Assembly (NCBI RefSeq): GCF_023715895.1
Contig: NZ_JAMBOO010000014.1
Location: 30,938 to 94,937 of the forward strand
Direction: 5' to 3'
From: Domibacillus indicus
GTDB taxonomy: Bacteria > Bacillota > Bacilli > Bacillales > Domibacillaceae
Length of the DNA stretch: 64,000 nt
Positions 2,458 through 29,996 of the stretch are shown here, in pieces. Made by a program: the position numbers and the translations under genes. The stretch's first letter is position 1, and every line of letters starts with the position of its first letter. Under the pieces are notes generated by a model. It made no database searches and had not been told where the DNA came from. It worked only from the letters and a program-made list of their open reading frames with translations.

Positions 2458-3474
2458 ATGAAAAAAACGTTTCTTGGTGTGCTAGCTGCTTCTGTGACGA
2501 GTGCAATGATTCTTGCTGGATGTAACGGTTCCGAAGAAGCTGCTTCAGGAGGGGGGCAGACAAAAACGATTAAAGTGGCTAACTACTTTGCAGAAGACCA
2601 TCCACAAAATATCGCATTAAAAGAAAAATTTAAAACGATGGTAGAAGAAGAGAGTGGAGGTCAATTAAAAGTTCAGATTTACGCAAACAGTACGCTAGGA
2701 GCTGAAAAAGAATTTTATGATGGTGTCCGAAACGGAACAATCGAAATGGGCATTCCAGGCTTAATTATGCAGGCAGATATTCCAAAGATGGGTGTTCCTG
2801 AATGGCCGTTCCTATTTAGGGACTTCGAGCATGTAAAGAATGTATTAAATGGTCCGATCGGTGAAGAAATAACCGCTGATTTAGAACCGAAACATGGAGT
2901 TACTCCACTTGCTTGGAGTGCAAATGGATTTAGAATGTTCTCAAGCAACCGCACGATCGAAAGCATGGAAGATTTTGACGGCCTCCGTCTCAGAATGCCG
3001 AACATTCCAAACTATATTAAATTAGGTGAATCGCTTGGGGCAAACGTAAGTCCATTACCTATTTCTGAAGTATTTACAGCGCTTGAACAAAAGGTAGTGG
3101 ATGCTCAGGACAATCCAATCGCTACGTTGAGAAATTCAGCATACTACGAAGTTCAAACAGATGTACTGGAATCGAAGCATATGTTCAGTCCAAATATTTA
3201 TATCATTAACACCAAGTTCTTTAATGGATTAACAAAAGAACAGCAGGATATTATTCAAAATGCTGCCAAAGAAGCTGCTGAATATGAGTTTGACTTGCTG
3301 GAAAAAAGCTATGAAGAAGATAAAAACTTCCTTGAGGAAAATGGCATAAAATTCACAACACCAGATGAAAAGTTTGCAAAAGAAATGGAAGAAGCAGCGA
3401 AGCCTGTATACGATGATGCTTTCAAAGAAAATGAGTGGGCAGAAGAGCTGGTTGAAAAAATTAAAGCAGAATAA
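2458..3474 (+). CDS. dctP: TRAP transporter solute-binding lipoprotein (DctP family), first copy
   Basis: DctP proteins capture organic or sugar acids outside the membrane and pass them to the DctQM permease. The 338-residue protein starts with a lipoprotein signal peptide (lipobox LAGC, Cys at about 22), then the DctP fold with TIKVANYFAEDHPQN and the specificity region LRMPNIPNYIKLGESLGA, which holds the arginine that usually binds the substrate carboxylate. EVFTALEQKVVDAQDNP is a family hallmark. A good ribosome site (GGGAGGA) precedes ATG 2458. It is the first gene of the operon, and its neighbours suggest an aldonate or uronate ligand. A second DctP follows at 5421. Confidence 0.93.
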   Translation: MKKTFLGVLAASVTSAMILAGCNGSEEAASGGGQTKTIKVANYFAEDHPQNIALKEKFKTMVEEESGGQLKVQIYANSTLGAEKEFYDGVRNGTIEMGIPGLIMQADIPKMGVPEWPFLFRDFEHVKNVLNGPIGEEITADLEPKHGVTPLAWSANGFRMFSSNRTIESMEDFDGLRLRMPNIPNYIKLGESLGANVSPLPISEVFTALEQKVVDAQDNPIATLRNSAYYEVQTDVLESKHMFSPNIYIINTKFFNGLTKEQQDIIQNAAKEAAEYEFDLLEKSYEEDKNFLEENGIKFTTPDEKFAKEMEEAAKPVYDDAFKENEWAEELVEKIKAE

Positions 3475-3508
3475 GTAAGCGCTTTAATAAGGAGAGTGAA
3501 GAAATAAG

Positions 3509-4084
3509 ATGAATAAACTATCGAGATATCTAGAAAACACTTTGAACATTGTCATGGCTGTTTCATTAGCAGTTATGGTCGTTCTCGTATTCGGCAACGT
3601 AGTTCTTCGCTACCTTTTCAATTCAGGTATTACCTGGTCAGAAGAAATGTCACGCTACCTTTTTATTTGGCTGACATTTCTCGGTGCCATTGGCGCTTTT
3701 AAAAACAAAGAACACTTAGGTGTGGACATGCTGATTAAGCGGCTTCCTACTAAGATGAAAAAAGTCGTCATCGTGATCAGTGATTTACTGATATTACTCG
3801 TCCTTTACCTTGTCCTTGACGGCAGCTGGAAGATGACGATGATTAACATTGACAGCAAGGCGCCAGCTACAGGCCTGCCGCTGGCTTTTGTATATGGGAC
3901 AGGCATTTTAGTCAGTATTTCTATGGGAATCATGACCATTTATAACTTGTATCAAGTGGTGTTTAACAAAATCAAAGATGAGGATTTAGTTAAGATTAGT
4001 GATTCAGAAGAATTGATTGCCCTTCACGAAGAGGAATTTGTGACAGACGACATCATGATAAGCAAGGAGGAGAAAAAGGCATGA
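3509..4084 (+). CDS. dctQ: TRAP transporter small permease subunit
   Basis: DctQ is the small four-helix membrane subunit that pairs with DctM. The 191-residue protein has hydrophobic segments near residues 12-35, 48-65, 85-105 and 130-150 and the family signature around SEEMSRYLFIWLTFLGA. The acidic C-terminal tail (SDSEELIALHEEEF) is longer than usual and probably cytoplasmic. Its stop overlaps the dctM start (ATGA at 4081-4084). A ribosome site (AAGGAGAG) precedes ATG 3509. Confidence 0.93.
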   Translation: MNKLSRYLENTLNIVMAVSLAVMVVLVFGNVVLRYLFNSGITWSEEMSRYLFIWLTFLGAIGAFKNKEHLGVDMLIKRLPTKMKKVVIVISDLLILLVLYLVLDGSWKMTMINIDSKAPATGLPLAFVYGTGILVSISMGIMTIYNLYQVVFNKIKDEDLVKISDSEELIALHEEEFVTDDIMISKEEKKA

Positions 4085-5358
4085 TCGGTGTATTTGTCGG
4101 ATCTTTACTCGGTGCAATGGCATTAGGAATGCCGATTGCCTTTGCCTTGCTTGTAAGCAGCGTTATCTTAATGTACGCCCTTGGTATTTTTGACAGCCAG
4201 ATTATCGCGCAGAACCTCATCAGCGGCGCAGATAACTTTCCTCTGATGGCGATTCCGTTCTTTATGCTGGCGGGAGAGTTAATGAATCAAGGAGGACTGT
4301 CGCGGCGGATCGTTGAAATGGCGATGACGCTGGTTGGCCATATTCGCGGAGGCCTTGGCTATGTAGCTATCATTGCGGCTTTATTATTTGCGAGTATCTC
4401 TGGTTCAGCTGTAGCCGATACAGCAGCTCTTGGTGCCGTCTTAATTCCGATTATGGCTAAAGCCGGCTATAACGTAAATCGTTCGAGCGGACTCATTGCT
4501 ACAGGGGGAATTATTGCCCCGGTCCTGCCGCCAAGTATTGGTTTTATCATTTTCGGTGTGGCAAGTGGTGTATCTATTACCCAGCTGTTTATGGCGGGAA
4601 TTGTGCCCGGCCTATTAATGGCTCTCGGCCTGGTGGTTACATGGGCGGTTGTGGCCCGCAAGGATAAGGTAGAAGTGCAGCCCCGCGCATCCGCCAAGGA
4701 GATGCTTGCTGCTGTTCGCCACGGAATCTGGGCTTTATTCCTTCCGGTTATTATTATTGCAGGATTGAAATTCGGAATTTTTACACCGACGGAAGCGGCG
4801 GTTGTAGCCGCTGTATACGCACTATTTGTCGGTCTTGTTGTATACCGTGAATTGAAAGTGAAAGACTTATTCAACGTATTTGTTCATGCAGGCAAGATGA
4901 CCAGTGTCGTCATGTTTCTTGTGGCAGCCGCACTCGTTTCCTCCTGGCTGATCACGGTGGCTAACCTGCCTGGCGCAGTCATTGGAATGTTAGAGCCGTT
5001 CCTGGACAAACCGCTCCTTCTGCTCATTATGATTAACCTGCTGGTGATCGTAGTTGGAACCGCCATGGATATGACGCCGACGATTCTAATTTTAACCCCT
5101 GTTTTAATGCCGATTATTGACGCAGCGGGCATTGATCCTGTTTACTTCGGTGTCCTGTTTATTTTAAATAACGCGATCGGACTGCTTACGCCGCCAGTTG
5201 GAACGGTCTTAAATGTCATGTGCGGAATAAGTAAAATTAGTTTAGAAGATTTGATGAAAGGCATCTGGCCTTTCCTGCTTGTAGAAGTCATTATCTTAAT
5301 TTTGTTAATTCTGTTCCCTTCATTAGTATTAGTCCCTCTTGAATGGTTTACATCTTAA
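4081..5358 (+). CDS. dctM: TRAP transporter large permease subunit
   Basis: DctM is the ion-coupled translocation subunit that moves the substrate with sodium or protons. The 425-residue length fits the family, and there are about twelve hydrophobic segments. Family motifs include PLMAIPFFMLAGELM, the SGSAVADTAALGAVLIP loop and GGIIAPVLPPSIGF in the first half, and the related NNAIGLLTPPVGTVLNV in the second. It overlaps dctQ by four bases and is followed 62 bases later by a second binding-protein gene. Confidence 0.95.
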   Translation: MIGVFVGSLLGAMALGMPIAFALLVSSVILMYALGIFDSQIIAQNLISGADNFPLMAIPFFMLAGELMNQGGLSRRIVEMAMTLVGHIRGGLGYVAIIAALLFASISGSAVADTAALGAVLIPIMAKAGYNVNRSSGLIATGGIIAPVLPPSIGFIIFGVASGVSITQLFMAGIVPGLLMALGLVVTWAVVARKDKVEVQPRASAKEMLAAVRHGIWALFLPVIIIAGLKFGIFTPTEAAVVAAVYALFVGLVVYRELKVKDLFNVFVHAGKMTSVVMFLVAAALVSSWLITVANLPGAVIGMLEPFLDKPLLLLIMINLLVIVVGTAMDMTPTILILTPVLMPIIDAAGIDPVYFGVLFILNNAIGLLTPPVGTVLNVMCGISKISLEDLMKGIWPFLLVEVIILILLILFPSLVLVPLEWFTS

Positions 5359-5420
5359 GAGGAAGAAAACAATAATTAGGCTTAAATACACTTATTAACA
5401 ATAGTTTAGGAGGAATGAGG

Positions 5421-6476
5421 ATGAATACTTGGCTGAAACGTTTGGCTGCTGGCGTTGTACTGCCGGGAGTTTTACTACTCGGAGCCTGTAGCGATGGTGG
5501 AGGGAATGCCACCAAAACTGGAAGCGCTTCAACGGAAGGCATTCAGGAAAGAACGATTAAAGCAGGAATTGGAAACAGTGAAAAACACCCCCAGGGACAG
5601 GGAATGGTCAAGTTCAAAGAACTGGTTGAAGAAAACAGCGGCGGAAAAATGAAGGTTCAAAACTTTTTTGATGCTACGCTCGGTGATGACCAAAAAATGA
5701 CGGAAGCACTTCAGGCCGGCATGCAGGAGGTAACGGTGCCATCCACTTCACCGCTTGTCGGAACGATCAAGGAATTTGGGATTTATGACTTCCCATTTGT
5801 TTTTAACAGTGAAGAAGAAGCGTATGCAGTTCTTGACGGTGCAGTCGGCCAAAAGCTTTTAGATAAATTGCCGGAGCATGATCTGGTTGGTCTTGGTTAC
5901 TGGGAAAACGGCTTCCGGAATTTAACAAACAGTAAACACCCAGTGGAAACAGCTGCTGATTTTAAAGGCCTCAAAATTCGCACCATGCAAAATGAAGTGC
6001 ATTTAGATGCTTTTTCAAAATTAGGAGCGAATCCATCGCCGATGGCTTTCTCTGAAGTGTTTACCGCGCTGGAAACAGGCACTGTAGACGGCCAGGAAAA
6101 TCCGCTCGCAACCATCCAAACACAAAAATATTATGAAGTACAAGACTATTTGAGCATTACAAAACACGTTTACACACCGTTTGTTTTCCTTGTCAGTAAA
6201 AAGTTCTGGGATGGCTTGTCGGAAGAAGAACAAAAGATTATGAGCGAAGCAGCACAAGAAGCGGGCAAGTATCAGCGTGAATTGAATCAAAAAGAAAATG
6301 AAAAAGCACTAAAAACTTTAAAAGAAGAAGGAATGAAAATCAACGAGGTAACACCAGAGGAAATGGAAAAAATGAAAGAAATCATTCAGCCGGTAACAGA
6401 CGAATATGCCCAAAAGTTTGGTGCTGATCTTGTAGAAGAAATGATGGCCGAAGTTGAAAAAGTGCGCGGCAATTAA
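5421..6476 (+). CDS. dctP: TRAP transporter solute-binding lipoprotein (DctP family), second copy
   Basis: This is a second, clearly diverged DctP-type lipoprotein (lipobox LLGAC; 351 residues). It keeps FRNLTNSKHPVETAADFKGL, LKIRTMQNEVHLDAFSKLGA and SEVFTALETGTVDGQENPL. AGGAGG at 5408-5413 is one base before ATG 5415 but seven before ATG 5421, so 5421 is taken as the start. No second DctQM exists nearby, so both proteins probably serve the single permease and widen its substrate range. Gene order is dctP-dctQ-dctM-dctP-larA. Confidence 0.92.
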   Translation: MNTWLKRLAAGVVLPGVLLLGACSDGGGNATKTGSASTEGIQERTIKAGIGNSEKHPQGQGMVKFKELVEENSGGKMKVQNFFDATLGDDQKMTEALQAGMQEVTVPSTSPLVGTIKEFGIYDFPFVFNSEEEAYAVLDGAVGQKLLDKLPEHDLVGLGYWENGFRNLTNSKHPVETAADFKGLKIRTMQNEVHLDAFSKLGANPSPMAFSEVFTALETGTVDGQENPLATIQTQKYYEVQDYLSITKHVYTPFVFLVSKKFWDGLSEEEQKIMSEAAQEAGKYQRELNQKENEKALKTLKEEGMKINEVTPEEMEKMKEIIQPVTDEYAQKFGADLVEEMMAEVEKVRGN

Positions 6477-6504
6477 TCCAGCGCTTCAGTAAGGAGATCA
6501 AATA

Positions 6505-7752
6505 ATGGATATTATTGCAGAGCTTTTACGAGACATCCAATTACCAAAAATGGTGAAAGTAAAACAGAAATTTCATGCACCTGAACTCGCTGATACAGCG
6601 GGTGAGGTGCATGAAGCCATAAAGAAAGCGGATGTTTTATCAAGGATTTCAAAAGGAGATCGTGTAGCCATTGCTGTAGGCAGCAGAGGGGTCGCGGATC
6701 TTCCTATACTCGTCAGAGAAACGGCAGCGGCTGTAAAAAAAGCAGGCGGGGAGCCATTTATCGTACCGGCAATGGGAAGCCATGGGGGAGCCACAGCGGA
6801 AGGACAAATTGATGTGCTGCTTCAGCTGGGGGTTACGGAAGAAGCGGTTGGGGCACCGATACATTCTTCAATGGAAGTAGAAAAACTCGGCGAATTGCCG
6901 AACGGGCTTCCTGTTTATATGGACAAGCTTGCTTTTGAAGCAGACAAGATTATCGTGATCAACAGGATCAAGCCACATACGGCTTTTCGCGGGCCTGTGG
7001 AAAGCGGCTTAATGAAAATGATCACCATCGGTCTCGGCAAACAAAAAGGAGCCGAAGCTGCACATGCATACAGCTTTAAATACATGGCTGAACATGTTCC
7101 GGAAATGGCGAAAATCTCTTTGGCGAAAGCACCGATCATTTTCGGTTTAGCCACACTGGAAAATGCTTACGACAGGCCGGCCAAAATGGTCGCAGTACCA
7201 GCAGAAGATTTGGAAAAAGCAGAGCCGGATTTGCTGCTGGAAGCCAAATCCCTTATGCCAAAAATTCACTTCGATAAGTTTGATGTGCTCATAGTAAATG
7301 AGCTTGGCAAAGACATTTCAGGTGACGGAATGGATCCGAATATTACGGGCAATTTTGCCACGCCGTATGCATCAGGCGGACCCGATATAGCGCGGACTGT
7401 CGTTCTCGGATTGACGGAGAAAACGCATGGCAATGCCAATGGCATCGGGATGGCCCATATGACAACGAAAGAAGTCGTTGACCAAATTGCTTGGGAAAAA
7501 GGGTATGCCAATGCTCTTACCAGCACTGTTATTGAAGTAATTAAGCTGCCGATGGTGTTAGCAACGAAAGAGCTGGCGGTGAAAGCAGCGATCAAAACCT
7601 GCAATGCCTTTGATTTATCGAAAGTGCGGCTTGTCCGGATTCAAAATACGTTAGAAATCGGTGAAATATGGATTTCAGAAAGCATGATTGAGGAAGCGGA
7701 ACAAAACCCAAATCTAGAAATCATTTCATCGTTAGAGCCGCTTTCACTTTAA
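6505..7752 (+). CDS. larA: LarA-family nickel-dependent 2-hydroxyacid racemase/epimerase
   Basis: LarA-type enzymes use the nickel-pincer cofactor to invert the alpha-carbon of 2-hydroxyacids; the superfamily includes lactate and malate racemases and a gluconate 2-epimerase. The 415-residue protein has the DUF2088 N-terminal domain. Candidate cofactor residues are His93 in GSHGGATAEG, Lys156/His158 in NRIKPHTAFRGP, Lys179 in GLGKQKGAEAAH and His187. Because it sits between a TRAP transporter and sugar-acid dehydratases, its substrate is more likely an aldonate than lactate (inference). The cofactor genes larB and larC lie 4.4 kb upstream. AAGGAGAT precedes the start. The larA symbol marks the family, not proven lactate racemase activity. 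Confidence 0.85.
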   Translation: MDIIAELLRDIQLPKMVKVKQKFHAPELADTAGEVHEAIKKADVLSRISKGDRVAIAVGSRGVADLPILVRETAAAVKKAGGEPFIVPAMGSHGGATAEGQIDVLLQLGVTEEAVGAPIHSSMEVEKLGELPNGLPVYMDKLAFEADKIIVINRIKPHTAFRGPVESGLMKMITIGLGKQKGAEAAHAYSFKYMAEHVPEMAKISLAKAPIIFGLATLENAYDRPAKMVAVPAEDLEKAEPDLLLEAKSLMPKIHFDKFDVLIVNELGKDISGDGMDPNITGNFATPYASGGPDIARTVVLGLTEKTHGNANGIGMAHMTTKEVVDQIAWEKGYANALTSTVIEVIKLPMVLATKELAVKAAIKTCNAFDLSKVRLVRIQNTLEIGEIWISESMIEEAEQNPNLEIISSLEPLSL

Positions 7753-7770
7753 AAAAGGAGGAGCACGCGT

Positions 7771-9975
7771 ATGACCCACTTATATCCATTGATTGAAAAT
7801 GACATTAACCCGTATCGGGACAATGTGCAGGGAAAAGCAAACGAACCAATTACGGTCGCCGGGCTGCTTGATCGGTCAAAGCAGGTGCTTGGTTCTACAT
7901 ACGAAGGAGGAAAACCGGACTGGACGCTGGAAGAAATTTATATGCGTTTAGAAAAAAATGCCCCGCGCATCGCGATTATCGGCGGGTCTTCCGATCATCC
8001 AGCCCATATTATGGATTATCAAACGTCCGCCAGGGCAGCAATCCGTATCTGGCAAAACGGCGGGGTCCCATTTTACTTTTCAACTCCGGTGATGTGTGAC
8101 GGAACAGCACAGAACAATCAAGGGATGAGCTATTCACTGCAAAGCCGCAACGCGGTTGCCCAGATGGTTGTCAATCAGCTTGAAGCCCACAGCTATCACG
8201 GTGCATTCGTCATTCAAGGATGTGATAAGCAGCCCTTGGGCGTCGTCAGTGCGCTGGCTCATGTTGACCGCGTCCGCCGTGAACGCGGGGAGGCTCCGTT
8301 TTTTGCAACGTTTGCACCGGCTCATGTATTGGAAGGCGGGTCCATACCGGATGATGTAATTGAAGAATTGGAGGCGCTGGCCCGGAAAGCAGAAGAAGAA
8401 GGAGCAGCAGACGTAGCGCTCGATTTGCGCGATACAATGGCTTATATTCTGCAATGCTCATCTAACACAGCATTTCAAGGTGTGTTCGAGCGGGCGTACG
8501 AACGGGGCATTTTAACGAAAGAGCAGCATAAATATTTTGAAATGCGGCTCGCGGTCGCAACATGTGATGGGCAGGGCGGTGTTTGTGCTTTTAACGGAAC
8601 AGGCAACAGCTCGCGGCACTTAGTGGCAGGATTGGGTCTCATTCATCCGGCGGTAGAATTGCTAACCGATCCGCCAACCCAGCGCCAGATCAATTCCGTG
8701 CTCGACAGCTTTTCTCACATGATTAATAAAGAAGAATACGGTGTGGCCAACATTGTCGGTGCCAACATTAAAAATGCGATTCGGATTCACAGCGCGTCCG
8801 GCGGCTCGACAAACTTAATGATGCATATGGTCGCAGGCATGCTGTATGCAGGATACAAATTCAGCCTTTGGGATGTAGATCGTATCCATCACGAGCATCC
8901 GATTCCAGACTTATTTGATTATAGTCTGACAGAAGGGCGCGACATTTATTCACTTGCCACGCAGTGCTGCAGCGGAACAAGCAGAGGAATGGAAACCCTG
9001 TTTTACGAATTGCTTGAGCATGGCGTACCGATGGATCAGGATGTGCCGACTGTCGCCGCTAAAACATGGCGGGAGCGGCTGGTCATTACCCGCAGCCTGC
9101 AGGCGGCCAATGTAAAAGAAAATCCAGTGATTTTGTCCACGCCGCGCCGCAGCTTCAGTGGAGTGGATGTACTGCAAGGCAACTTCTTTGAAAGTGCTGT
9201 AGTTAAAATCAGCGGGATGTCCACACCGCAGCTTGATTTGTTTGATGATAAGCTCGCATTTGTGCTGTATTACGAAAATGAAGATGATGCAAATAAAAGT
9301 CTATTGGATACAGCTCTGCTGGCCAGCATTCGTGACCAGAGATTGTTTGCCCATGAGCTGCTGATTGCTTCTTTAAAGTACAACAGCAAAGAAAATTGGC
9401 AGGATCATCAAAACAAGCCATATGACGAGCTGTTTGATTATATGGCAGAGGAAGGAATCTTAAAAATCAGCGTTATCATTGCCGGGCAGGGACCAGTCGC
9501 ATTCGGGATGCCGGAAATGTTTACGCCAATGCAGCACATCAATGCAAGCCGCGTCATGAAAAAACTGGCTACTATTATAAGTGACGGCCGTTACTCAGGT
9601 GTTACTTATGGGGCGGCAATTGGGCATATGACACCTGAAGCATATGAAGGCGGCGGGATTGGCCTTTTGCAGACAGGTGACATCGTTCATCTGCAGCTTC
9701 GTGGAAGACGCATTGACTTTGTGCAGGTGGACAAGCTGTTACAAGGAGAAATTGTCCACTCATTTGAAGAAGAACTAAAACAGCAGCGGGCCAGCTTAGC
9801 GGCAGAGCGGAAACAGCGCATGAAAGTAAGACAGAAAATGGTCGCAGCCAGCAATCGAATGTATGGCCATACCGATGCCGCCAACGGCGTTGTACCTCTT
9901 GCAGTAGTGGAAGATGCAGTTCACGATTACGAGAAAGATATTGTGCTGTTCGAACAGAACATTACGGCGAAGTAA
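7771..9975 (+). CDS. IlvD/Edd-family sugar-acid dehydratase
   Basis: IlvD/Edd enzymes use an Fe-S cluster and magnesium to dehydrate 2,3-dihydroxy acids to 2-keto-3-deoxy acids. Candidate cluster cysteines are Cys109 (VMCDGTAQNNQGM), Cys151 (IQGCDKQPLG) and Cys272 (CDGQGGVCAFNGTG). The conserved SASGGSTN and SDGRYSGVTYGAAIGH motifs of the C-terminal half are present. At 734 residues it is much longer than IlvD (about 560) or Edd (about 600) and nearer the YjhG/YagF xylonate dehydratase group, so an aldonic acid is likelier than a valine intermediate. A coiled, basic C-terminal extension (about 650-700) accounts for part of the length. The substrate is probably a pentonate, since a KdaD-type enzyme follows. 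Confidence 0.85.
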   Translation: MTHLYPLIENDINPYRDNVQGKANEPITVAGLLDRSKQVLGSTYEGGKPDWTLEEIYMRLEKNAPRIAIIGGSSDHPAHIMDYQTSARAAIRIWQNGGVPFYFSTPVMCDGTAQNNQGMSYSLQSRNAVAQMVVNQLEAHSYHGAFVIQGCDKQPLGVVSALAHVDRVRRERGEAPFFATFAPAHVLEGGSIPDDVIEELEALARKAEEEGAADVALDLRDTMAYILQCSSNTAFQGVFERAYERGILTKEQHKYFEMRLAVATCDGQGGVCAFNGTGNSSRHLVAGLGLIHPAVELLTDPPTQRQINSVLDSFSHMINKEEYGVANIVGANIKNAIRIHSASGGSTNLMMHMVAGMLYAGYKFSLWDVDRIHHEHPIPDLFDYSLTEGRDIYSLATQCCSGTSRGMETLFYELLEHGVPMDQDVPTVAAKTWRERLVITRSLQAANVKENPVILSTPRRSFSGVDVLQGNFFESAVVKISGMSTPQLDLFDDKLAFVLYYENEDDANKSLLDTALLASIRDQRLFAHELLIASLKYNSKENWQDHQNKPYDELFDYMAEEGILKISVIIAGQGPVAFGMPEMFTPMQHINASRVMKKLATIISDGRYSGVTYGAAIGHMTPEAYEGGGIGLLQTGDIVHLQLRGRRIDFVQVDKLLQGEIVHSFEEELKQQRASLAAERKQRMKVRQKMVAASNRMYGHTDAANGVVPLAVVEDAVHDYEKDIVLFEQNITAK

Positions 9976-10035
9976 TATGTGCGGGCTCGTCAAAAATCCG
10001 TTAAACTAAAACAAACGACAACGGGAGTGAGCAAC

Positions 10036-10803: not shown

Positions 10804-10837
10804 ACGATGATGGTTCATCACATAGGAGGATATAACA

Positions 10838-11728: not shown

Positions 11729-11740
11729 AGAGGTGTCGGC

Positions 11741-13202: not shown

Positions 13203-13221
13203 CTTAAAGGAGAGCGAAACG

Positions 13222-14691
13222 ATGACACTCACTACATTTGAAACGAAAACCTATCAAAACTTTATTAATAATGAATGGACAGCCAGTTCTTCTGATGAAA
13301 CGATTGAAAGCATAAATCCGGCAACAAAAGAAGTTGTAGGACTCGTGCAAAAGTCAACAGAAGAGGATTTGAATAAAGCGGTTGAAGCAGCACACCAGGC
13401 GAAAAAAGCATGGCGGCGGATCGGCCAGGCAGCACGCGGACAGTTTTTATTTAAAGCTGCCAATATTTTAGAAGAAAACCTGGATCATATTGCGGAAACA
13501 ATGACACGTGAAATGGGCAAAACCCTTCCAGAAGCAAAAGGAGAAACAGCGCGCGGTATAGCTATTTTGCGTTATTATGCGGGCGAAGGAATGAGAAAAG
13601 AAGGAGATGTTATTCCATCATCAGATAAAGATGCGCTTATGTTTACAAAGCGTATGCCGCTCGGTGTGGTTGGAGTAATTACACCTTGGAACTTCCCAGT
13701 CGCCATTCCGATTTGGAAATTTGCCCCGGCTCTTGTTTATGGAAACACAATTGTCTGGAAGCCGGCGACAGAAGGCGCCGTAACAGCAGCGAAAGTTGCC
13801 GAGTGCTTTATGGAGGCAGGATTGCCGGAAGGTGTTTTTAATTTTATTACCGGTTCGGGTTCAGTAATTGGGCAGGGGCTGATTGACCATCCTCTTTTAA
13901 ATGCCATCACGTTTACAGGTTCAGAAAACGTTGGCCAGAACGTGGCAAAATCAGCTGCTGCCCGCGGTATTAAATTCCAGCTTGAAATGGGCGGAAAAAA
14001 CCCAGTTATCATTACGAAGGATGCGAACATCGATCAGGCAGTAGAAGCTGTGATCAGCGGCGGGTTCCGTTCTTCCGGCCAGAAATGCACAGCGTCAAGC
14101 CGGGTGATTGTAGAAGAAGCGGTCTATGAGGAGTTCAAAGAAAAGCTTGTGGCAGCCACTGAAAAAATTACCGTTGGAAACGGCCTGCAAGAAGGAATCT
14201 GGATGGGACCGTGCGCAAGTGAAAGCCAGTTTAATACAGTAACAGAAAGCATTGAAAAAGGCCGGCAGGAAGGAGCTACATTGATTCACGGCGGTGAAGT
14301 GCTGACCGGTAGTGAGTATGATAATGGATTTTTCGTAACACCGGCGATTTTTGAAAATGTTACATCAGACATGACGATTGCGCAGGAAGAGATCTTCGGA
14401 CCAGTCATTGCCCTTATTAAAGCAGCTGATCTTGAAGAAGCCATTGAAATGGCGAACGATACGAAATACGGATTGAGCGCTTCTATTTTCACATCAAATA
14501 TCAGCTCTCTCCTTGAATTTATTGATGAAATTGAGGCAGGCCTCGTGCGTATCAATGCAGAAAGCGCTGGTGTGGAGCTGCAGGCGCCGTTCGGCGGCAT
14601 GAAAGCTTCAAGCTCAGGGTCACGCGAGCAGGGTGAAGCGGCCAAAGAATTCTTTACCGCGATTAAAACCGTATTTATTAAAGGCTCTTAA
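13222..14691 (+). CDS. NAD(P)-dependent alpha-ketoglutarate-semialdehyde dehydrogenase
   Basis: An aldehyde dehydrogenase expected to oxidise 2,5-dioxopentanoate to 2-oxoglutarate, the last step of oxidative pentonate or hexarate breakdown. The 489-residue protein has every ALDH hallmark: [10 protein letters not shown] (Asn157), the cofactor turn FTGSENVG, the general base Glu255 in LEMGGKNP and nucleophile Cys289 in [10 protein letters not shown]. Start ATG 13222 follows AAAGGAGAG. It is strikingly similar along its whole length to the ALDH at 30944-32410, which sits beside kdgD, a producer of the same semialdehyde; that supports the substrate assignment. Confidence 0.88.
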
Positions 14692-14730
14692 GAAAACAGC
14701 ATTTCAATTTACTGTTGGATGAGGTGCACA

Positions 14731-15879
14731 ATGAAAATTACTAAGCTTTCATTATACAAAGTCCCGCCGAGATGGCTGTTTTTAAAAATCGAAACCGATG
14801 AAGGCATCTCAGGCTGGGGTGAGCCTGTCGTAGAAGGACGTGCGGAAACAGTCAGAGCAGCGGTGGAGGAACTCTCCAGCCTGCTCGTCGGCCGCAATCC
14901 GAATGACATTGAAGATTTGTGGCAGACGATGTACCGGGGCGGTTTTTACCGGGGCGGCCCCATCTTAATGAGCGCGATCTCAGGTATTGAGCAGGCGCTT
15001 TGGGATATTAAAGGGAAGTATTACAACATCCCTGTGTATGAAATGCTGGGCGGAAAAGCCCGTCAGAAAATTAAAGTTTATTCATGGATTGGCGGCGACC
15101 GGCCGGCAGACGTTGCGGCAGCGGCGATCGAAAAGCAAAAGCAAGGGTTCCAGGCTGTGAAAATGAATGCTTCCGAAGAAATGAATTACATCGACAGTTT
15201 TTCTAAGGTGGAAAAAGTGATCGAGCGGGTCGCGTCAATTCGCGAAGCGCTTGGCAAAGACTTTGGCATCGGTGTTGATTTTCACGGCCGTATTCATAAA
15301 ACAATGGCGAAAACCCTTGTGAAAGAGCTGGAGCCGTACCGTCCTATGTTTATTGAGGAGCCGGTGCTGCCGGAAAACAATGAAGCGCTTCGCGACATTG
15401 CGCTTCATACCACATGCCCAATTGCGACAGGTGAGCGCATGTACACGAGATGGGGCTTTAAGCAGCTGCTCCAGGACGGGTATGTCGATATTATTCAGCC
15501 CGATTTATCCCATACAGGCGGTATTTTAGAAGGTAAAAAAATTGCGGCGATGGCAGAAGCATACGATGTGGCGGTTGCGCCGCATTGTCCGCTTGGTCCA
15601 ATGACACTGGCCTCTTCTATTCATTTGGACGCATCGACGCCGAATTTTATTATTCAAGAGCAAAGCCTCGGTATTCATTACAACGAGGGCATGGACATCT
15701 TAGACTATATAACCAATCCGGACGTTTTTCATTATGAAGACGGATATGTGAGCATCTCAGATGAACCGGGTCTTGGCATTCATATTAATGAAGAAAAAGT
15801 AAAAGAAGCGGCAAAAATCGGCCACGACTGGAAAAATCCGATCTGGCGCCATGAAGATGGCAGCATAGCGGAATGGTAA
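14731..15879 (+). CDS. dgoD: D-galactonate dehydratase (enolase superfamily, DgoD-like)
   Basis: DgoD dehydrates D-galactonate to 2-keto-3-deoxy-D-galactonate. The 382-residue length equals E. coli DgoD. Metal ligands and bases fall at the numbers I recall for the E. coli enzyme: Asp183 and His185 (GVDFHGRIH), Glu209 (MFIEEPV), Glu235 (IATGERM) and His285 (VAPHCPLGP). The N-terminal capping domain opens with [22 protein letters not shown] 14731 follows GAGGTG; an in-frame ATG at 14719 is possible. The product would be used by the KDG kinase and KDPG aldolase at the operon's end. Confidence 0.88.
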
Positions 15880-15891
15880 AGGAGGAGCAAA

Positions 15892-16803
15892 ATGACTTTT
15901 CATGGCATTATACCGCCGGTTGTCACGCTGTTTGATGAAGCGGGAAATTTAGATATTTCTTTGAATAAGCGTTATTTGGACGAGCTTTTGTCACGGAATG
16001 TAGATGGACTTCTTTTGATGGGAAGCTCTGGAGAGTTTTCTTCTCTGACGATTGAAGAGAGAAAGCTGTATGTGCGCGAAATGATCAAGCACATTAACGG
16101 ACGCGTGCCGGTCATGGTCGGTGTCGGCCACTCAGCATTAAAAGAAGTGATTGAGCTGACCCATTATGCCGAAGAGCAGGGAGCAGACGGTGTGCTTGCG
16201 GTCAGCCCGTATTATTGGAAGCTGTCGGAAGAGCAGCTGTATCGCTTTTTCTCTGCTTTAGCATCTGAAACGAGCCTGCCGGTGTTCCTTTACAATATTC
16301 CGATGCTGACCGGCCAAACGTTATCCATCGAGCTTATTCAAAAGCTTGCGGCAGCGTACCCAAACATTGCCGGCATCAAAGAAACGATCAGCGATTTTGG
16401 TCATATCCGGCAGGTCATTGCTTCTGTGAAAAAAATTAGGCCTGATTTTCTCGTTTTTACCGCTTTTGATGATCACCTGCTTCCAGGCCAAATGATCGGC
16501 GCAGATGGAAGCATTAATGGAAGCGCTGTTTTTATGCCGGAGATCTCTGTTGATTTATATAATGCTTATCAGCAGGGGGAGCTGCATGAAGCAGAGCGCC
16601 AGCATCAGCATCTGTCTCAATTAATGGACATCTATGCCGTCTGTCCGACGTTTTTTACGGCCATGAAAGAAGCCGTTCATCAGCGCTGGTTTGATCAGCC
16701 GGCCGGACACCGCGCTCCGTTTGATGTGTATCCAGCAGATTTAACAGAAAAAACAGCCGCTATTTTAAATACAATAAATGAGAAAGAAGGGGTTCAATTA
16801 TGA
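15892..16803 (+). CDS. DapA/NAL-family aldolase or dehydratase
   Basis: A 303-residue class I TIM-barrel lyase that forms a Schiff base with pyruvate-like substrates. GSSGE (44-48), Tyr134 (LYNIPMLTG) and Schiff-base Lys163 (AGIKETISD) are all present. In sugar-acid operons such proteins are usually 2-keto-3-deoxy-aldonate aldolases (YagE-like), splitting the acid into pyruvate and an aldehyde, or 2-keto-3-deoxy-acid dehydratases; which applies here cannot be told. AAGGAGGAG precedes ATG 15892. It overlaps the next gene by four bases, indicating tight coupling. Confidence 0.8.
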   Translation: MTFHGIIPPVVTLFDEAGNLDISLNKRYLDELLSRNVDGLLLMGSSGEFSSLTIEERKLYVREMIKHINGRVPVMVGVGHSALKEVIELTHYAEEQGADGVLAVSPYYWKLSEEQLYRFFSALASETSLPVFLYNIPMLTGQTLSIELIQKLAAAYPNIAGIKETISDFGHIRQVIASVKKIRPDFLVFTAFDDHLLPGQMIGADGSINGSAVFMPEISVDLYNAYQQGELHEAERQHQHLSQLMDIYAVCPTFFTAMKEAVHQRWFDQPAGHRAPFDVYPADLTEKTAAILNTINEKEGVQL

Positions 16804-17750
16804 AAGAAACGCGTGAATTTTTAGAGAGCTTAGGTTATCCTTCGTCTGATCCAGGTGAGCTGCCGACATCGACCAAAACTTTTCCGGACGGTGCACAATA
16901 TCGAATTGAGCTTCCAAGTGTGGAAGGGCCTGAAGCATTAAAAGCGACGCTGGCGGAAATTGACCGTCTTGGCCTGACCATTCACCGCATTTCACAGGGA
17001 AGCGGCATTATGCTGCAGACCGATGAAGAAATCAAGGAAATGTGCGAGCTGACAGCGGAACGCGGCATTGAATTAAGCCTGTTTGTCGGTCCGCGCGGAA
17101 CATGGGATATTAGTGCAGGGCCGCTTACTGCCGCCGGAAAAGCGCAGGCACTTCGTCATGAAGGAGCAAACCAGCTTGTATACGCGATGGAAGACTTAAA
17201 GCGCGGTGCGGCACTCGGCCTTCGTGGAGCGCTTGTTGCCGATGAAGGGCTTTTGCTCCTGACGAAAGAAATGAAAAAGCAAGGGCAGCTGCCGGAGGAT
17301 TTTGTGGTGAAAGTGTCGGTTCAAATGGGATCGGCTAACCCTGTGTCAGTGCGGCTAATGCAGGACATCGGAGCAGATACATACAACGTGCCGACCGGGT
17401 TAACGCTGTCAAAGCTCGCAGCGATCCGCCAGGCTATTGACATTCCTATTGATTTATATGTGGAAGTGCCGGACAATTTCGGCGGATTCCTCCGCTACTA
17501 TGAAATTCCGGAAATCATCCGAGTGCTCGCGCCGGTTTACATTAAATTCGGCTTGCGCAACCATCCCGACGTGTATCCGTCAGGAAAGCAGTGGGAAAGC
17601 ACGAATATTTCTCTTACCCAGGAGCGTGTACGCCGCGCATCAATCGGCATCCAAATGATTGAACGGTACTGCCCAGATGCCAAAACGTCAAAGCTCGGAG
17701 CCGAGGGGCTTGGCATCGCCAAAATCGTAAAAGAAGCACCCATGAATTAA
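16800..17750 (+). CDS. U32-peptidase-like TIM-barrel protein of unknown function
   Basis: I recognise the overall resemblance to the peptidase U32/sugar-phosphate-isomerase-like barrel family but no defined function. The 316-residue protein has barrel-like strands (GIELSLFVGPRG, LRGALVADEG, VKVSVQMGSANPVSVRLM, IPIDLYVEVPDNFGG, PVYIKFGLRNHPDVYPSG) and no signal peptide, so a cytoplasmic enzyme is likely. Aspartate and glutamate residues ending these strands could hold a metal. It overlaps the DapA-family gene by four bases and precedes a dehydrogenase gene by 18, so it belongs to the same branch. A role in carbohydrate-acid metabolism rather than proteolysis is inferred only from context. Confidence 0.6.
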   Translation: MKETREFLESLGYPSSDPGELPTSTKTFPDGAQYRIELPSVEGPEALKATLAEIDRLGLTIHRISQGSGIMLQTDEEIKEMCELTAERGIELSLFVGPRGTWDISAGPLTAAGKAQALRHEGANQLVYAMEDLKRGAALGLRGALVADEGLLLLTKEMKKQGQLPEDFVVKVSVQMGSANPVSVRLMQDIGADTYNVPTGLTLSKLAAIRQAIDIPIDLYVEVPDNFGGFLRYYEIPEIIRVLAPVYIKFGLRNHPDVYPSGKQWESTNISLTQERVRRASIGIQMIERYCPDAKTSKLGAEGLGIAKIVKEAPMN

Positions 17751-17768
17751 GAAAAGGAGCGGAATAAC

Positions 17769-18728
17769 ATGACTTTTAAAGTATTGTTGACAGATTATGA
17801 ATTTGCCCATCTTGAGTACGAAGAGCAGGTTTTCAATGAAAGCGGTCTCGACATTGAATTTATCAAAAAACAATGCAAAACAGAAGAAGACGTGATTGAG
17901 CACGCGAAAGAAGCAGATGCTCTTTTAAATCAATACGCGCCTATTTCAAAACGTGTGATCGATTCTCTTGAACGAACAAAAGTCATTTCCCGGTATGGTG
18001 TCGGCGTCAACACAATCGATATCGACGCTGCTCAGGCAAAAAACATTACCGTAGCCAATGTGCCGGATTACGGAATGGAAGAGGTATCGAATCATGCGCT
18101 CGCCTTGCTGCTGTCATGGGCTCGAAAAGTGACCCTATTAAACAATGAGGTCAAGCAGGGAAACTGGGATTTTAAAGCGTGTGTGCCAATCCACCGTTTT
18201 GATAAACAGACCGTTGGCGTACTCGGTTTCGGCCGAATTCCGCGCCGCTTTATTGAAAAGGTAAAGCCGCTCGGGTTCCAAACAGCTGCCTATGATCCGT
18301 TTGTGTCAGCCGAAGAGATGGCAGCGGCGGGCGTTCAAAAAATGGAACTGGATGAAATCATCAAAGAGTCAGATTACTTGTCTGTTCACGTTCCGCTTAT
18401 TAAAGAAACACATCATCTATTAAACGCTGAACGATTCAGCCAGATGAAGAAAAATGCTGTGGTTATCAATACAGCCCGGGGCCCGATTATTGATGAAAAA
18501 GCCCTGGCTGACGCGCTAGAGCAGGGCATCATCGCCGGCGCTGCGCTGGATGTTACAGAAGAAGAGCCGGTCAGTAAAACAAGTCCGCTCCTTCAAATGA
18601 ATAACGTTATCATTACACCGCACAGTGCCTGGTATTCAGAAGAAGCCATGATTGAACTGCGCCAAAAAGCAGCGAAAAATATTGTGCAAGTTTTAAAAGG
18701 CGAACAAACGCCTTATGCGCTTACGTAA
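17769..18728 (+). CDS. D-isomer-specific 2-hydroxyacid dehydrogenase
   Basis: A 319-residue NAD-dependent dehydrogenase of the D-2-hydroxyacid family, nearest to the CtBP-like branch. The cofactor motif is VLGFGRIPRRF (151-161); catalytic residues are Arg237 (NTARGPI), Glu266 (DVTEEEP) and His285 (ITPHSAWYS). RYGVGVNTIDI precedes the Rossmann domain. In the cofactor loop, Ile-Pro replaces the usual Ile-Gly. With the FAH hydrolase immediately downstream it could oxidise a hydroxyl of a keto-deoxy acid to give a diketo acid for hydrolysis (inference), or reduce a 2-keto acid. AAAGGAGCGG precedes ATG 17769. Confidence 0.85.
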   Translation: MTFKVLLTDYEFAHLEYEEQVFNESGLDIEFIKKQCKTEEDVIEHAKEADALLNQYAPISKRVIDSLERTKVISRYGVGVNTIDIDAAQAKNITVANVPDYGMEEVSNHALALLLSWARKVTLLNNEVKQGNWDFKACVPIHRFDKQTVGVLGFGRIPRRFIEKVKPLGFQTAAYDPFVSAEEMAAAGVQKMELDEIIKESDYLSVHVPLIKETHHLLNAERFSQMKKNAVVINTARGPIIDEKALADALEQGIIAGAALDVTEEEPVSKTSPLLQMNNVIITPHSAWYSEEAMIELRQKAAKNIVQVLKGEQTPYALT

Positions 18729-18746
18729 GAAAGGCGGAATGGAAAA

Positions 18747-19589
18747 ATGAAATTAGCCCTGTTTTCAGCAGAAGAAAAGCATCACCTCGGCGTTGTCCGG
18801 GGTGATCACATCGTCAGCTTAACGGCGATCGATCCTGAAACGTATCCACCCTGCATTAAAACATTTATCCAGCGGGGGAGCACAGTTCCTTCCCTTGAAG
18901 GACAGCCGTCGTTTTCTTTAGAGGATATTAACATTGACGTCCCCATCGCCTCACCGGAAAAAATCATTTGTGTCGGCTTGAACTATATTGATCATTGCCA
19001 TGAAACAGGCATGGAACCGCCGAAATCACCGGTTATTTTTTCGAAATACGCAAACGCGTTAACCGGCCATCATACCGCTGTAGAAATACCCGTTAATTCA
19101 AATGAAGTAGATTTCGAAGCGGAGCTGGCTATCGTAATCGGCAAAGAAGCAAAACATGTCTCAGAGGAAGAAGCAGAAGAATTCGTTTTTGGCTATACGA
19201 TCATGAATGATATAAGTGCCAGGGACCTGCAGTTTGCGGATGGACAGTGGTCACGCGGCAAAACAGCGGACACCTTTGCGCCAACGGGCCCGTATGTCGT
19301 GACGCGTGACGAAATCGGCAATCCACACGATCTAGCTATTTCACTGACATTGAATGGCGAAACGATGCAGGATTCCAATACGAGCAATTTGATTTTTACG
19401 GTTCCACAAATCGTTTCCTTTTTATCGCAATCTATGACGTTGAAGCCGGGAGACTTAATCGCGACTGGAACACCGCCGGGCGTCGGAATGGGCCGCAGCC
19501 CGAAAGTGTGGCTGAAGGACGGGGACCAAATGGACGTAACAATCGAAAAAATTGGTACGCTGTCCAATCATGTACGTGGAAGATCATAA
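18747..19589 (+). CDS. Fumarylacetoacetate hydrolase family protein
   Basis: A 280-residue FAH-fold enzyme of the acylpyruvate hydrolase type. Signature blocks are ICVGLNYIDHCHETGMEPP, PVIFSKYANALTG, metal-binding DFEAELAIVIGKEA, NDISARDLQF, SRGKTADTFAPTGPYVV and GDLIATGTPPGVGMG. It differs from the KdaD-like FAH protein of the same operon. Relatives hydrolyse C-C bonds in 2,4-diketo acids, for example 2,4-diketo-3-deoxyrhamnonate to pyruvate plus a hydroxyacid. Together with the upstream dehydrogenase this would form an oxidative-hydrolytic branch (inference). Confidence 0.83.
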   Translation: MKLALFSAEEKHHLGVVRGDHIVSLTAIDPETYPPCIKTFIQRGSTVPSLEGQPSFSLEDINIDVPIASPEKIICVGLNYIDHCHETGMEPPKSPVIFSKYANALTGHHTAVEIPVNSNEVDFEAELAIVIGKEAKHVSEEEAEEFVFGYTIMNDISARDLQFADGQWSRGKTADTFAPTGPYVVTRDEIGNPHDLAISLTLNGETMQDSNTSNLIFTVPQIVSFLSQSMTLKPGDLIATGTPPGVGMGRSPKVWLKDGDQMDVTIEKIGTLSNHVRGRS

Positions 19590-19610
19590 ACGAGAAAGAA
19601 GAGGATGAAC

Positions 19611-20567
19611 ATGGATGTTGTAACCGTGGGCGAAACGATGACCTTATTTTCACCAAATGAGCACGGCCAGCTGCGCCATGCTCATTCTTTTTCTATGAAG
19701 TTTGCTGGTGCGGAATCCAATGTTGCCATCGGATTAAGCCGTCTTGGCCATAAAGCGCGCTGGATCAGCCGATTAGGTGAGGACGAATTTGGTGATGCAA
19801 TGGAGATTTTTATTCGTGGAGAAGGTGTGGACGTATCGTATGTTACACGCGATGAGCGGGCGCCAACCGGTGTATTTTTTAAAGAATTCCGCCGTCCGAA
19901 TGATACGCGCGTTTATTACTATCGGAAAGATTCCGCTGCCAGCCAGCTGACGGCGGATCATATTAAGGCAGAAGCCATTAAAGGAGCCGCTTATCTGCAT
20001 ATAACCGGTATTACACCGGCTCTCGGTGAATCGTGCCAGTCTGTCATGGACAAAGCGATTCGGCTGGCGAAAGCGAACGGGGTAAAGATTGTGTTTGATC
20101 CAAATGTGCGTCTGAAAATCTGGAAAAGTGAAGAAGAAGCACGCCGGCTGATCAAACGGTATATAGCAGAAAGCGACATTGTATTGCCAGGTGAAGCGGA
20201 GGCCGAATTTTTATTTGGCAAAAAAGATAGATTCGCTTATGTAGAAGCATTTCATGATCTCGGTGCAGACATTGTCCTGATGAAAGTCGGAAAAGAAGGA
20301 TGTCTTGTATCACAAAGAGGAAAAGCAGTGGAGCATGTTTCCGGCTTTTATGTGGAGAGAGTGATCGATCCGATCGGTGCAGGTGACGCGTTCGCCGCTG
20401 GCGTTTTATCGGCTTTATTGGATGGACTGTCCGTTGAGGAAGCGGCCAGGCGAGGCAATGCAATGGGTGCGATGGTGACCATGGTAAATGGAGATGTCGA
20501 AGGGCTGCCTAACCGAGCGGACCTGTTTTCTTTTATGAATGGCGGATCGGATGATGTAACGAGATAG
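19611..20567 (+). CDS. kdgK: 2-keto-3-deoxygluconate kinase (PfkB family)
   Basis: Phosphorylates 2-keto-3-deoxygluconate (or the galacto epimer) with ATP to the 6-phosphate. This is a ribokinase-fold protein with the N-terminal substrate-binding region GGAESNVAI-like (FAGAESNVAIGLSRLG, 31-46) and the C-terminal anion-hole/catalytic motif DPIGAGDAFAAG (Asp259). AGAAGAGG abuts ATG 19605, so ATG 19611, six bases away, is taken as start (318 residues). The next gene is the matching aldolase, so substrate assignment is good. Confidence 0.88.
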   Translation: MDVVTVGETMTLFSPNEHGQLRHAHSFSMKFAGAESNVAIGLSRLGHKARWISRLGEDEFGDAMEIFIRGEGVDVSYVTRDERAPTGVFFKEFRRPNDTRVYYYRKDSAASQLTADHIKAEAIKGAAYLHITGITPALGESCQSVMDKAIRLAKANGVKIVFDPNVRLKIWKSEEEARRLIKRYIAESDIVLPGEAEAEFLFGKKDRFAYVEAFHDLGADIVLMKVGKEGCLVSQRGKAVEHVSGFYVERVIDPIGAGDAFAAGVLSALLDGLSVEEAARRGNAMGAMVTMVNGDVEGLPNRADLFSFMNGGSDDVTR

Positions 20568-20582
20568 AAAGGAGAAACATAC

Positions 20583-21215
20583 ATGAATCAGCTTGAACGA
20601 TTAAAAGAAGGTAAGCTGGTCGCAGTGATTCGTGGCGCCCAGCCGGAACAAGTGATACCAATTGCACAGGCGCTGCAAGAAGGCGGGATTGTCTCGCTTG
20701 AAATCACAGCCGATACGCCTAAAGTGTGTTCTGTGATCGAAGGAGTAAAAGAAACATTTGGGGACAATATCATTGTTGGAGCCGGCACGGTGCTGGACCC
20801 GGAAACCGCCCGTGCCGTCATTATGGCGGGAGCGGAATTTATTTTCTCTCCGACCGTTAATGTGGAAACGATTAAAATGGCGAAGCGCTACGGTGTAATC
20901 AGCATTCCAGGCGCACTGACGCCAACTGAAATTTTAACAGCGTATGAACATGGGGCTGATTTGATCAAAGTTTTTCCAGCCGGTGCAATGGGAGCCGGAT
21001 ACTTTAAAGATTTAAAAGGGCCGCTGCCGCATATCCCGCTTATGCCAACAGGCGGCATCACTCTCGATAATATAGCGGACTACTTTAAAGCCGGCGCAGC
21101 AGCAGCCGGGCTGGGCAGCGCCCTTGTGAATCCTGCGAAGCTTCAAACCGAGGAATCCTATAAGGAGCTGACCAAAATGGCGCAGGCTTTTTCAGAGCTA
21201 GCTGCTGGCTGGTAA
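20583..21215 (+). CDS. eda: 2-keto-3-deoxy-6-phosphogluconate aldolase
   Basis: Class I aldolase cleaving KDPG (or KDPGal) into pyruvate and glyceraldehyde 3-phosphate. The 210-residue size is typical. It shows AVIRGAQPEQ, Glu40 (SLEITADTP), the phosphate-site IPGALTPTEI and Schiff-base Lys129 in LIKVFPAGAMG. PTGGITLDNI follows near residue 155. It is the last gene of the operon and is followed 36 bases later by a strong terminator. Confidence 0.92.
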   Translation: MNQLERLKEGKLVAVIRGAQPEQVIPIAQALQEGGIVSLEITADTPKVCSVIEGVKETFGDNIIVGAGTVLDPETARAVIMAGAEFIFSPTVNVETIKMAKRYGVISIPGALTPTEILTAYEHGADLIKVFPAGAMGAGYFKDLKGPLPHIPLMPTGGITLDNIADYFKAGAAAAGLGSALVNPAKLQTEESYKELTKMAQAFSELAAGW

Positions 21216-21251: not shown

Positions 21252-21281
21252 GCTTTTGCTCTTAAGAGCAAAAGCTTTTTT
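21252..21281 (+). terminator. Rho-independent terminator of the sugar-acid operon
   Basis: GCTTTTGCTC, a TTAA loop and GAGCAAAAGC form a perfect 10-bp stem followed by six Ts. It closes the + strand operon begun at 2195. The stretch 21282-21529 contains nothing I can assign. Confidence 0.9.
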
Positions 21282-29968: not shown

Positions 29969-29996
29969 AAAACAAAAAACACAAGGGGGATATACT

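Follow-up and report, generated by a model that had tools for sequence, protein, structure and literature searches.

Here we describe an operon of sugar-acid catabolism at 2458-21215 of a 64,000-nucleotide stretch of Domibacillus indicus DNA (contig NZ_JAMBOO010000014.1, positions 30,938 to 94,937; the window). Its core probably encodes a Weimberg-type, non-phosphorylative D-pentonate pathway in which a homologue of the nickel-pincer nucleotide (NPN) enzyme LarA, a clade A member of NPN isomerase group 22 (LarAH22; 6505-7752, + strand), would invert C2 of the incoming aldonates. A fuller proposal is more tentative: clade A may represent the first nickel-pincer pentonate 2-epimerase, with all four D-pentonates (xylonate, lyxonate, arabinonate and ribonate) funnelled through a new IlvD/Edd subfamily to one 2-keto-3-deoxy-D-pentonate that would also act as inducer through an IclR operator. 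The operon, its conserved core, its operator and the LarA membership of LarAH22 are well supported, and the nickel-pincer isomerase is the operon's most distinctive part. The isomerase, the larE, larB and larC genes upstream, a separate SAF-domain subunit and the common operator were all absent from the first-pass annotation, which had read the region as a broad-range island for aldonate degradation.

The operon comprises 18 open reading frames (ORFs) on the + strand with intergenic gaps of at most 57 bases; an earlier count of 16 genes is superseded, and the present count includes a 99-residue SAF-domain ORF at 11741-12040. A predicted sigma-A promoter (TTGACA-18-TATAAT, 2195-2224, +) that matches 12 of 12 consensus positions precedes the genes and a predicted intrinsic terminator (21252-21275, +), a ten-pair stem with a T tail, follows them, and together with the short gaps these support a single predicted transcription unit. 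Across the window neither promoters (23, against 29.5 in shuffles) nor terminators (24, against 22.4) exceed the shuffled totals, so the case for both signals rests on their position and quality.

LarAH22 scores 556.1 bits on the NCBIfam model NF052515 (cut-off 400) and has the LarA fold in a fold test. Searches of PDB sequences gave no match, at E 0.01 for the profile and at 0.001 for the single protein. Profile-profile alignment (probability 95.4, E 1.7e-8) places H93 and H158 opposite the catalytic histidines H108 and H174 of LarA, and K171 and H187 correspond to the NPN lysine K184 and the nickel ligand H200 with identical 16-residue spacing; each of these four residues is identical across all 21 sequences. 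The region of LarA D72 and R75 is gapped and the alignment stops before K298, so that the equivalents are not placed, which counts against an epimerase. It would fit a different hydride transfer, on a keto-deoxy or 2-hydroxyacid intermediate, and such reactions are allowed for LarA homologues without some of the catalytic residues in passages of PMC7583248; we regard this as highly improbable for clade A, given that the four aligned residues, two catalytic histidines, an NPN lysine and a nickel ligand, do not vary.

The genes for the cofactor lie directly upstream of the operon, each scoring above its cut-off. These are larE, just outside the window (G000:C55:29962-30792; TIGR00268, 368 bits, cut-off 150), larB, for NPN cofactor synthesis, whose 5' end lies beyond the window (103-681, +; NF033503, 258.6 bits, cut-off 175), and two ORFs for the N-terminal and C-terminal parts of the nickel insertion protein, larC1 (678-1577, +; TIGR00299, 232.5 bits, cut-off 90) and larC2 (1584-2063, +; NF052512, 151.5 bits, cut-off 50). 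The split of larC (678-2063), with a gap of six bases, is replaced by a single 408-residue ORF in locus L191.

A scan of GTDB genomes provided 80 named LarAH22 loci, the highest-ranking part of a longer list, and a tree of 82 LarAH22 proteins assigned 32 of these loci (L013-L044) to clade A, leaving 48 others. Comparisons of 27 with 48 loci are confined to L013-L092, minus five clade-A loci without the gene for a long IlvD/Edd-family protein (7771-9975, +, in the window); L128, L130, L133 and L191 are repeats of L024, L032, L036 and L028. Of the 32 clade-A loci, 27 carry the long IlvD/Edd gene no more than 2.6 kb from LarAH22, and none of the 48 loci outside the clade has it in its flanks; larE is within the 10-kb flank in 11 of the 27. 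In a phylum-level sample, 86 of the 398 genomes had a group 22 match. In an even class sample, 23 of 25 LarAH22 places at 65% identity or more lie within 5 kb of a long IlvD/Edd gene, the exceptions being a second copy in G542 and a place in G478, which keeps a 41-residue remnant of the dehydratase.

Gene content across these genomes indicates that the operon is made of a core (a TRAP transporter, LarAH22, the long IlvD/Edd protein, an IclR regulator, the FAH-family protein FAH1 and 2-oxoglutarate semialdehyde (KGSA) dehydrogenase) and optional modules (SAF/UxaA-type dehydratase, the D-galactonate dehydratase DgoD, and kinase with aldolase). Counting up to 10 kb from each of the 27 loci, a span that undercounts distal genes, we found FAH1 in 26, dctP1 and the IclR gene in 25 each, KGSA dehydrogenase in 21, a DapA-family gene in 19, a U32-like gene in 17, the UxaA-type gene in 16, DgoD in 14, and the kinase and the aldolase in five each; the sequence of L038 is incomplete on its upstream side. 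The smallest operons, in Geobacillus and Parageobacillus (L034, L036 and L037), consist of the TRAP genes, LarAH22, the long IlvD/Edd gene, IclR, FAH1, KGSA dehydrogenase, larE-B-C and the DapA-family gene, and their 10-kb flanks contain no other dehydratase of these families and no DgoD, kinase or aldolase. Their content reads as uptake, epimerisation and dehydration, followed by a KdaD step and an oxidation that yields 2-oxoglutarate. The neighbourhood comparison that the first-pass annotation had called for thus shows a core that is kept, and SAF/UxaA, DgoD and kinase/aldolase modules that are optional.

The loci also share an operator, a 17-base palindrome (GTTTTATAWTATAAAAC) that precedes the transporter genes and often recurs 20-60 bases ahead of FAH1. 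The window has a perfect copy (GTTTTATATTATAAAAC) at 2386-2402 and copies with two mismatches at 2233-2249 and 2253-2269, which begin 9 and 29 bases past the -10 box, a position suited to a repressor. At up to three mismatches there are five sites in the window, against a mean of 0.42 in shuffles, none of which gave five. Allowing up to two mismatches, we counted 66 sites across the 27 loci (548,598 bases; at least one site in 26 loci) and none across the 48 loci (932,955 bases); base shuffles of a larger locus set gave 0-1. An operator lies ahead of the transporter genes at 23 of the 27 loci, and 14 of 26 have one 20-60 bases in front of FAH1. Among 13 genomes of the genus, sites with at most one mismatch are present in six, two of them the same species, and these are exactly the genomes with a long IlvD/Edd gene, while the reversed-pattern control gave none. 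An operator-like sequence with three mismatches is situated inside the FAH1 coding region (10972-10988); the close relatives L015, L019 and L021 have sites with one or two mismatches at a similar place, and in distant loci the site is just upstream of FAH1. The IclR-family protein (9979-10803, +; PF01614, PF09339) is the candidate binder. A predicted CcpA (cre) site, TGTAAGCGCTTCAA, at 2314-2327 has two mismatches to the consensus, and by the same measure (at most two mismatches) putative sites lie upstream of dctP1 in 15 of 25 loci and in 2.6% of shuffles.

These findings bear on the idea of a broad-range island. The first-pass annotation rightly placed several dehydratase types in one operon (IlvD/Edd at 7771-9975, UxaA-type up to 13202 and enolase-type DgoD at 14719-15879, all on the same strand), and all of the exit families it named are present: a KdaD-like FAH protein with semialdehyde dehydrogenase, a kinase with an aldolase, and a DapA-family gene. 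Its view that this exceeds any single textbook pathway also holds, there being several sugar-acid dehydratase types and two exits in a conserved, apparently co-regulated operon. A plain island, in which independent dehydratases would serve unrelated aldonates with no dedicated epimerase step, accounts for this gene content, for the variation of modules between genomes and for long IlvD/Edd genes found without LarAH22. We nonetheless consider it improbable, because clade-A LarAH22 and the long IlvD/Edd gene are tightly linked, genes for the NPN cofactor are near the operon and one operator serves the whole set. What stands of the island is its optional modules; it is not unstructured, since gene content across genomes and an operator that ties the core to D-xylonate dehydratase give it a pentonate core.

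That tie comes from the only other perfect operator in this genome (G000:C158), which sits between a gene for a YjhG/YagF D-xylonate dehydratase (1148 bits, cut-off 808) and one for an enolase-type dehydratase; this YjhG would accordingly be under the same control as the operon. Within the genus, off-operon sites occur only there and at G016:C46, beside the same pair of genes, the enolase-type gene being broken in G016. Two further genomes, G575 and G675, encode relatives of the IclR regulator (53-54%), FAH1 (56-57%) and KGSA dehydrogenase (66-67%) together with YjhG, and have operators before YjhG and before FAH1; neither has a long IlvD/Edd gene, nor LarAH22 in the 18 kb. In G573, yjhG is part of the operon's own gene run. 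As the operator joins the core to D-xylonate dehydratase and G575 and G675 present a simpler version, a D-pentonate pathway of the Weimberg type is the most likely identity of the core.

In this pentonate pathway, a TRAP system with two binding proteins would import aldonates and LarAH22 would interconvert C2 epimers, either D-lyxonate and D-xylonate or D-ribonate and D-arabinonate. The long IlvD/Edd protein, the SAF plus UxaA-type enzyme and, in trans, YjhG would then convert D-pentonates to 2-keto-3-deoxy-D-pentonate. Every D-pentonate yields one and the same 2-keto-3-deoxy acid, so a C2 epimerase fits a pathway of the Weimberg type, and the inversion has no cost, since neither C2 nor C3 remains a stereocentre after dehydration. 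The KdaD-like FAH1 would form 2-oxoglutarate semialdehyde, and KGSA dehydrogenase would oxidize it to 2-oxoglutarate. DgoD, the kinase and the aldolase would make up a side branch, likely attached to this operon, that would take D-galactonate to pyruvate and triose phosphate. The IclR protein is proposed to repress at the transcription start and to be released by the common 2-keto-3-deoxy intermediate. The second binding protein, dctP2 (5415-6476, +; TIGR00787, 292 bits), has as its best PDB chain 7bbr (328 bits), which we take to be CxaP. According to passages of PMC12076931, CxaP binds D-xylonic, D-fuconic, D-galactonic and D-gluconic acids. The likeness of dctP2 to 7bbr would pair with a pentonate core plus a DgoD branch.

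LarAH22 is best read as a C2 epimerase acting on pentonates, a reading that we would place midway between doubtful and probable, with hexonates as the main rival substrates. Outside clade A the neighbours differ: 40 of the 48 loci have a mannonate-oxidoreductase-type SDR and 36 a gluconokinase-like gene, and one scanned Paenibacillus locus also has 6-phosphogluconate dehydrogenase. The D. indicus genome has its own LarAH22 paralogue of this kind, 56% identical, at L010 (G000:C117, 3015-10975), in the order uxaC, LarAH22, mannonate oxidoreductase, larE, gluconokinase-like, larB, larC1, larC2. That order fits a likely route from glucuronate through fructuronate, mannonate and gluconate to 6-phosphogluconate, in which the paralogue would act as a D-mannonate/D-gluconate 2-epimerase, and this context argues that group 22 acts on aldonates. 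Clade-A LarAH22 might by extension be a D-mannonate/D-gluconate or D-talonate/D-galactonate 2-epimerase and the long IlvD/Edd protein a hexonate dehydratase, delivering 2-keto-3-deoxygluconate (KDG) or 2-keto-3-deoxygalactonate (KDGal) to the DapA-family enzyme or to kinase plus aldolase, with FAH1 and KGSA dehydrogenase serving a separate pentonate. The NPN sugar-acid enzymes named as characterised in passages of PMC7583248 are gluconate 2-epimerases, DgoD is above its cut-off, the DapA-family gene is widespread (19 of 27 loci), and the assumed counterpart of dctP2 binds D-galactonic and D-gluconic acids in addition to D-xylonic acid. The smallest operons keep FAH1 and KGSA dehydrogenase and yet have no DgoD, kinase or aldolase in their 10-kb flanks, however, and the operator connects the core with D-xylonate dehydratase; we therefore think the hexonate route rather unlikely.

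Three other arrangements around LarAH22 were seen. At L011 (G000:C66, 8832-9554) two short ORFs match pieces of glucuronate isomerase (UxaC). The second continues into the C-terminus of a clade-B LarAH22, and the locus appears to be a paralogue-type uxaC-LarAH22 cluster that has decayed. A conserved protein of about 447 residues, membrane-like by eye, follows LarAH22 in L020 (11284-12627), L023, L025, L027, L033 and L044; it matched no Pfam or NCBIfam family and was not seen in the window. In L053 (Anaerospora) a LarAH22 relative stands beside a 578-residue IlvD/Edd protein, below all cut-offs, with SAF, UxaA-type and DapA-family genes, which from its gene content is a similar logic built from different parts.

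The long IlvD/Edd protein has 734 residues and passes no curated cut-off. Its best curated score is 189 bits (cut-off 644), with 169 bits against 618 for TIGR00110 (IlvD) and 115 against 808 for TIGR03432 (YjhG/YagF), so that it is a member of neither family; two IlvD proteins from relatives' loci reach 850-863 bits on the IlvD models (850-856 on TIGR00110). C109, C151 and C272 are kept in all 28 aligned members and match the YjhG cysteines, a comparison that rests on an alignment of 14 out of 30 YjhG rows (+ strand, no stop), the YjhG loci covering 30 of 35 places and L181, without the motifs, probably being a wrong-strand reading. C109 is part of a C-D-G motif, as in 29 of 30 YjhG proteins; the two IlvD proteins have D-D-G at that place. 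The AlphaFold model has a mean predicted local distance difference test (pLDDT) score of 52. In our reading the protein represents a new subfamily whose cluster site resembles that of YjhG, although its overall scores lean to the IlvD models. Relatives found in searches are 61-98% identical, and the gene is present in 39 of the 398 genomes of the class sample, with LarAH22 (E ≤ 1e-80) within 5 kb in 25 and a broken copy beside it in G463.

Several observations weigh against a pentonate pathway built around this epimerase. The remaining 13 of the 39 genomes have neither an intact nor a broken LarAH22 near the long IlvD/Edd gene, and eight of these form the 61-62% identity group; four loci of that group (L139-L142) each have the U32 gene, some have KGSA dehydrogenase, FAH1 or UxaA, and none has the operator. 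The epimerase is thus not essential to the long IlvD/Edd protein, and was probably added later to an older dehydratase module. Conversely, five clade-A LarAH22 loci are without the long IlvD/Edd gene, with operator sites numbering two in L018, one in L026 and none in the other three. A further genome of the genus, G011, has the operator immediately ahead of its long IlvD/Edd gene, and the 1.5 kb upstream contains no LarAH22. The dihydroxy-acid dehydratase models score the long IlvD/Edd protein higher (169-189 bits) than does the YjhG model (115). The similarity of FAH1 to 2q18 points to the exit of the pathway and not to its input, and in Anoxybacillus (L031) the kinase and aldolase genes lie upstream of the operon. 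As to regulation, the whole genome at up to two mismatches has six operator sites against seven for the reversed control, which is no enrichment, and the IclR protein is matched to the operator by co-occurrence. Among 30 YjhG loci the operator (at most one mismatch) was found only at G000, G575 and G675, and of nine class-sample genomes with both long IlvD/Edd and YjhG, a set that excludes the in-operon copy of G573, only G000 has it at the YjhG locus; yjhG in other genomes is probably under different control. Finally, the loci are related by descent and the counts are not independent.

The remaining genes of the operon are all on the + strand. The TRAP system begins with a first solute-binding protein, dctP1 (2458-3474; TIGR00787, 208 bits, cut-off 175), and includes the small permease dctQ (3509-4084; PF04290, 113 bits) and the large permease dctM (4081-5358; TIGR00786, 492 bits, cut-off 268). 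FAH1 (10838-11728) resembles 2q18 (252 bits, E 5.7e-74) as a KdaD-like 2-keto-3-deoxy-D-pentonate dehydratase. The SAF ORF (PF08666, 40.4 bits, cut-off 21) is the small subunit of a UxaA-type dehydratase and is kept beside the large subunit across loci; the latter (11982-13202; PF04295, PF20629; 6u7l, 249 bits) likely starts at 12021 or 12045. Placing the SAF and catalytic parts on separate genes gives a two-subunit, SuyAB-like layout of the UxaA/GarD type. KGSA dehydrogenase (13165-14691; NF042993, 863 bits, cut-off 770) is probably annotated with too early a start. DgoD (14719-15879) belongs to the enolase superfamily (NF010624, 680 bits, cut-off 311). The DapA-family aldolase or dehydratase (15892-16803; PF00701, 242 bits) was considered as KdgD and rejected, scoring only 89 bits against a cut-off of 374 on that model, and the U32-like protein (16800-17750) was likewise rejected as a peptidase, with 28 bits on PF01136. 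The U32-like gene is close to the long IlvD/Edd gene in the 17 loci counted above and also where LarAH22 is absent (L139-L142). A D-2-hydroxyacid dehydrogenase family protein (17769-18728) was identified by family scan. A second FAH-family protein, FAH2 (18747-19589; NF053535, 244 bits, cut-off 500), and a PfkB sugar-acid kinase resembling KDG/KDGal kinases (19605-20567; NF040938, 230 bits, cut-off 400) fall below their cut-offs, and the last gene encodes an aldolase for the 6-phosphates of KDG and KDGal (KDPG/KDPGal aldolase; 20583-21215; TIGR01182, 184.5 bits, cut-off 156). No operon protein matched an aldose dehydrogenase or lactonase family, a search that was not made genome-wide.

Next to the operon is a hexarate route, with GarD (22898-24526), GudD (26852-28210), an MFS transporter (28245-29612), KdgD (29997-30932) and a second KGSA dehydrogenase (30944-32410), each above its cut-off. 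Both the aldonate operon and this route would end in 2-oxoglutarate, and because the latter (22898-32410) has its own KdgD and KGSA dehydrogenase, independent control is suggested. Further along are a siderophore-type cluster (39335-48897) with diaminobutyrate transaminase and decarboxylase-like, N-monooxygenase-like and SbnF-like proteins, and after it a Btr-like regulator (53997-55568).

The De Ley-Doudoroff pathway for D-galactonate uses a DgoD-type dehydratase, a sugar-acid kinase and a KDPGal-type aldolase. The present operon encodes a DgoD, a KDPG/KDPGal aldolase and, as a candidate for the kinase, a PfkB protein under its cut-off, and the set is embedded in a probable pentonate operon. 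Among open-licence PMC papers, judged by titles, the openings of abstracts and passages, we found none on group 22, the long IlvD/Edd subfamily or this operon. The closest relatives are the Weimberg and Route II pentonate pathways, which share an FAH-family 2-keto-3-deoxypentonate dehydratase leading toward 2-oxoglutarate; in Herbaspirillum huttiense and P. mimosarum, the gene for a UxaA/GarD-type D-arabinonate dehydratase is clustered with that for an FAH-type dehydratase (passages of PMC6336799). The D. indicus operon differs in TRAP uptake, the separate SAF subunit, the new IlvD/Edd subfamily, the NPN isomerase with its cofactor genes, and the D-galactonate branch. The D-xylonate operons yagEFG and yjhIHG of Escherichia coli are similar in their IclR-type regulators, XynR and YjhI, which respond to 2-keto-3-deoxy-D-xylonate, and in a YjhG-type dehydratase, but they have an aldolase exit, and passages of PMC13279387 name no LarA homologue or KdaD. 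According to that paper a consensus binding sequence had yet to be characterised, whereas here there is a clear operator candidate.

Among NPN enzymes, the D-gluconate 2-epimerases GntE1 and GntE2 of LarA groups 19 and 20 have in common with LarAH22 the LarA fold and a sugar-acid context and, as predicted for LarAH22, NPN chemistry and C2 inversion (passages of PMC7583248); group 22 is separate, and the term does not appear in the main text of that paper. LarA groups 14, 15 and 17 have one catalytic histidine of the LarA kind in a carbohydrate gene context (passages of PMC12393405), whereas group 22 keeps equivalents of both. Our analysis proposes a concrete function for NPN isomerase group 22 and for the long IlvD/Edd subfamily, and supplies a candidate operator for an XynR-like IclR regulator. 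If the proposal is true, a nickel cofactor made beside the operon broadens the sugar-acid diet of these bacteria, and pentose acids could usefully be turned into 2-oxoglutarate with the epimerase and the dehydratase. Compared with these known systems, what is new here is a probable Weimberg-type variant with an unexpected nickel enzyme.

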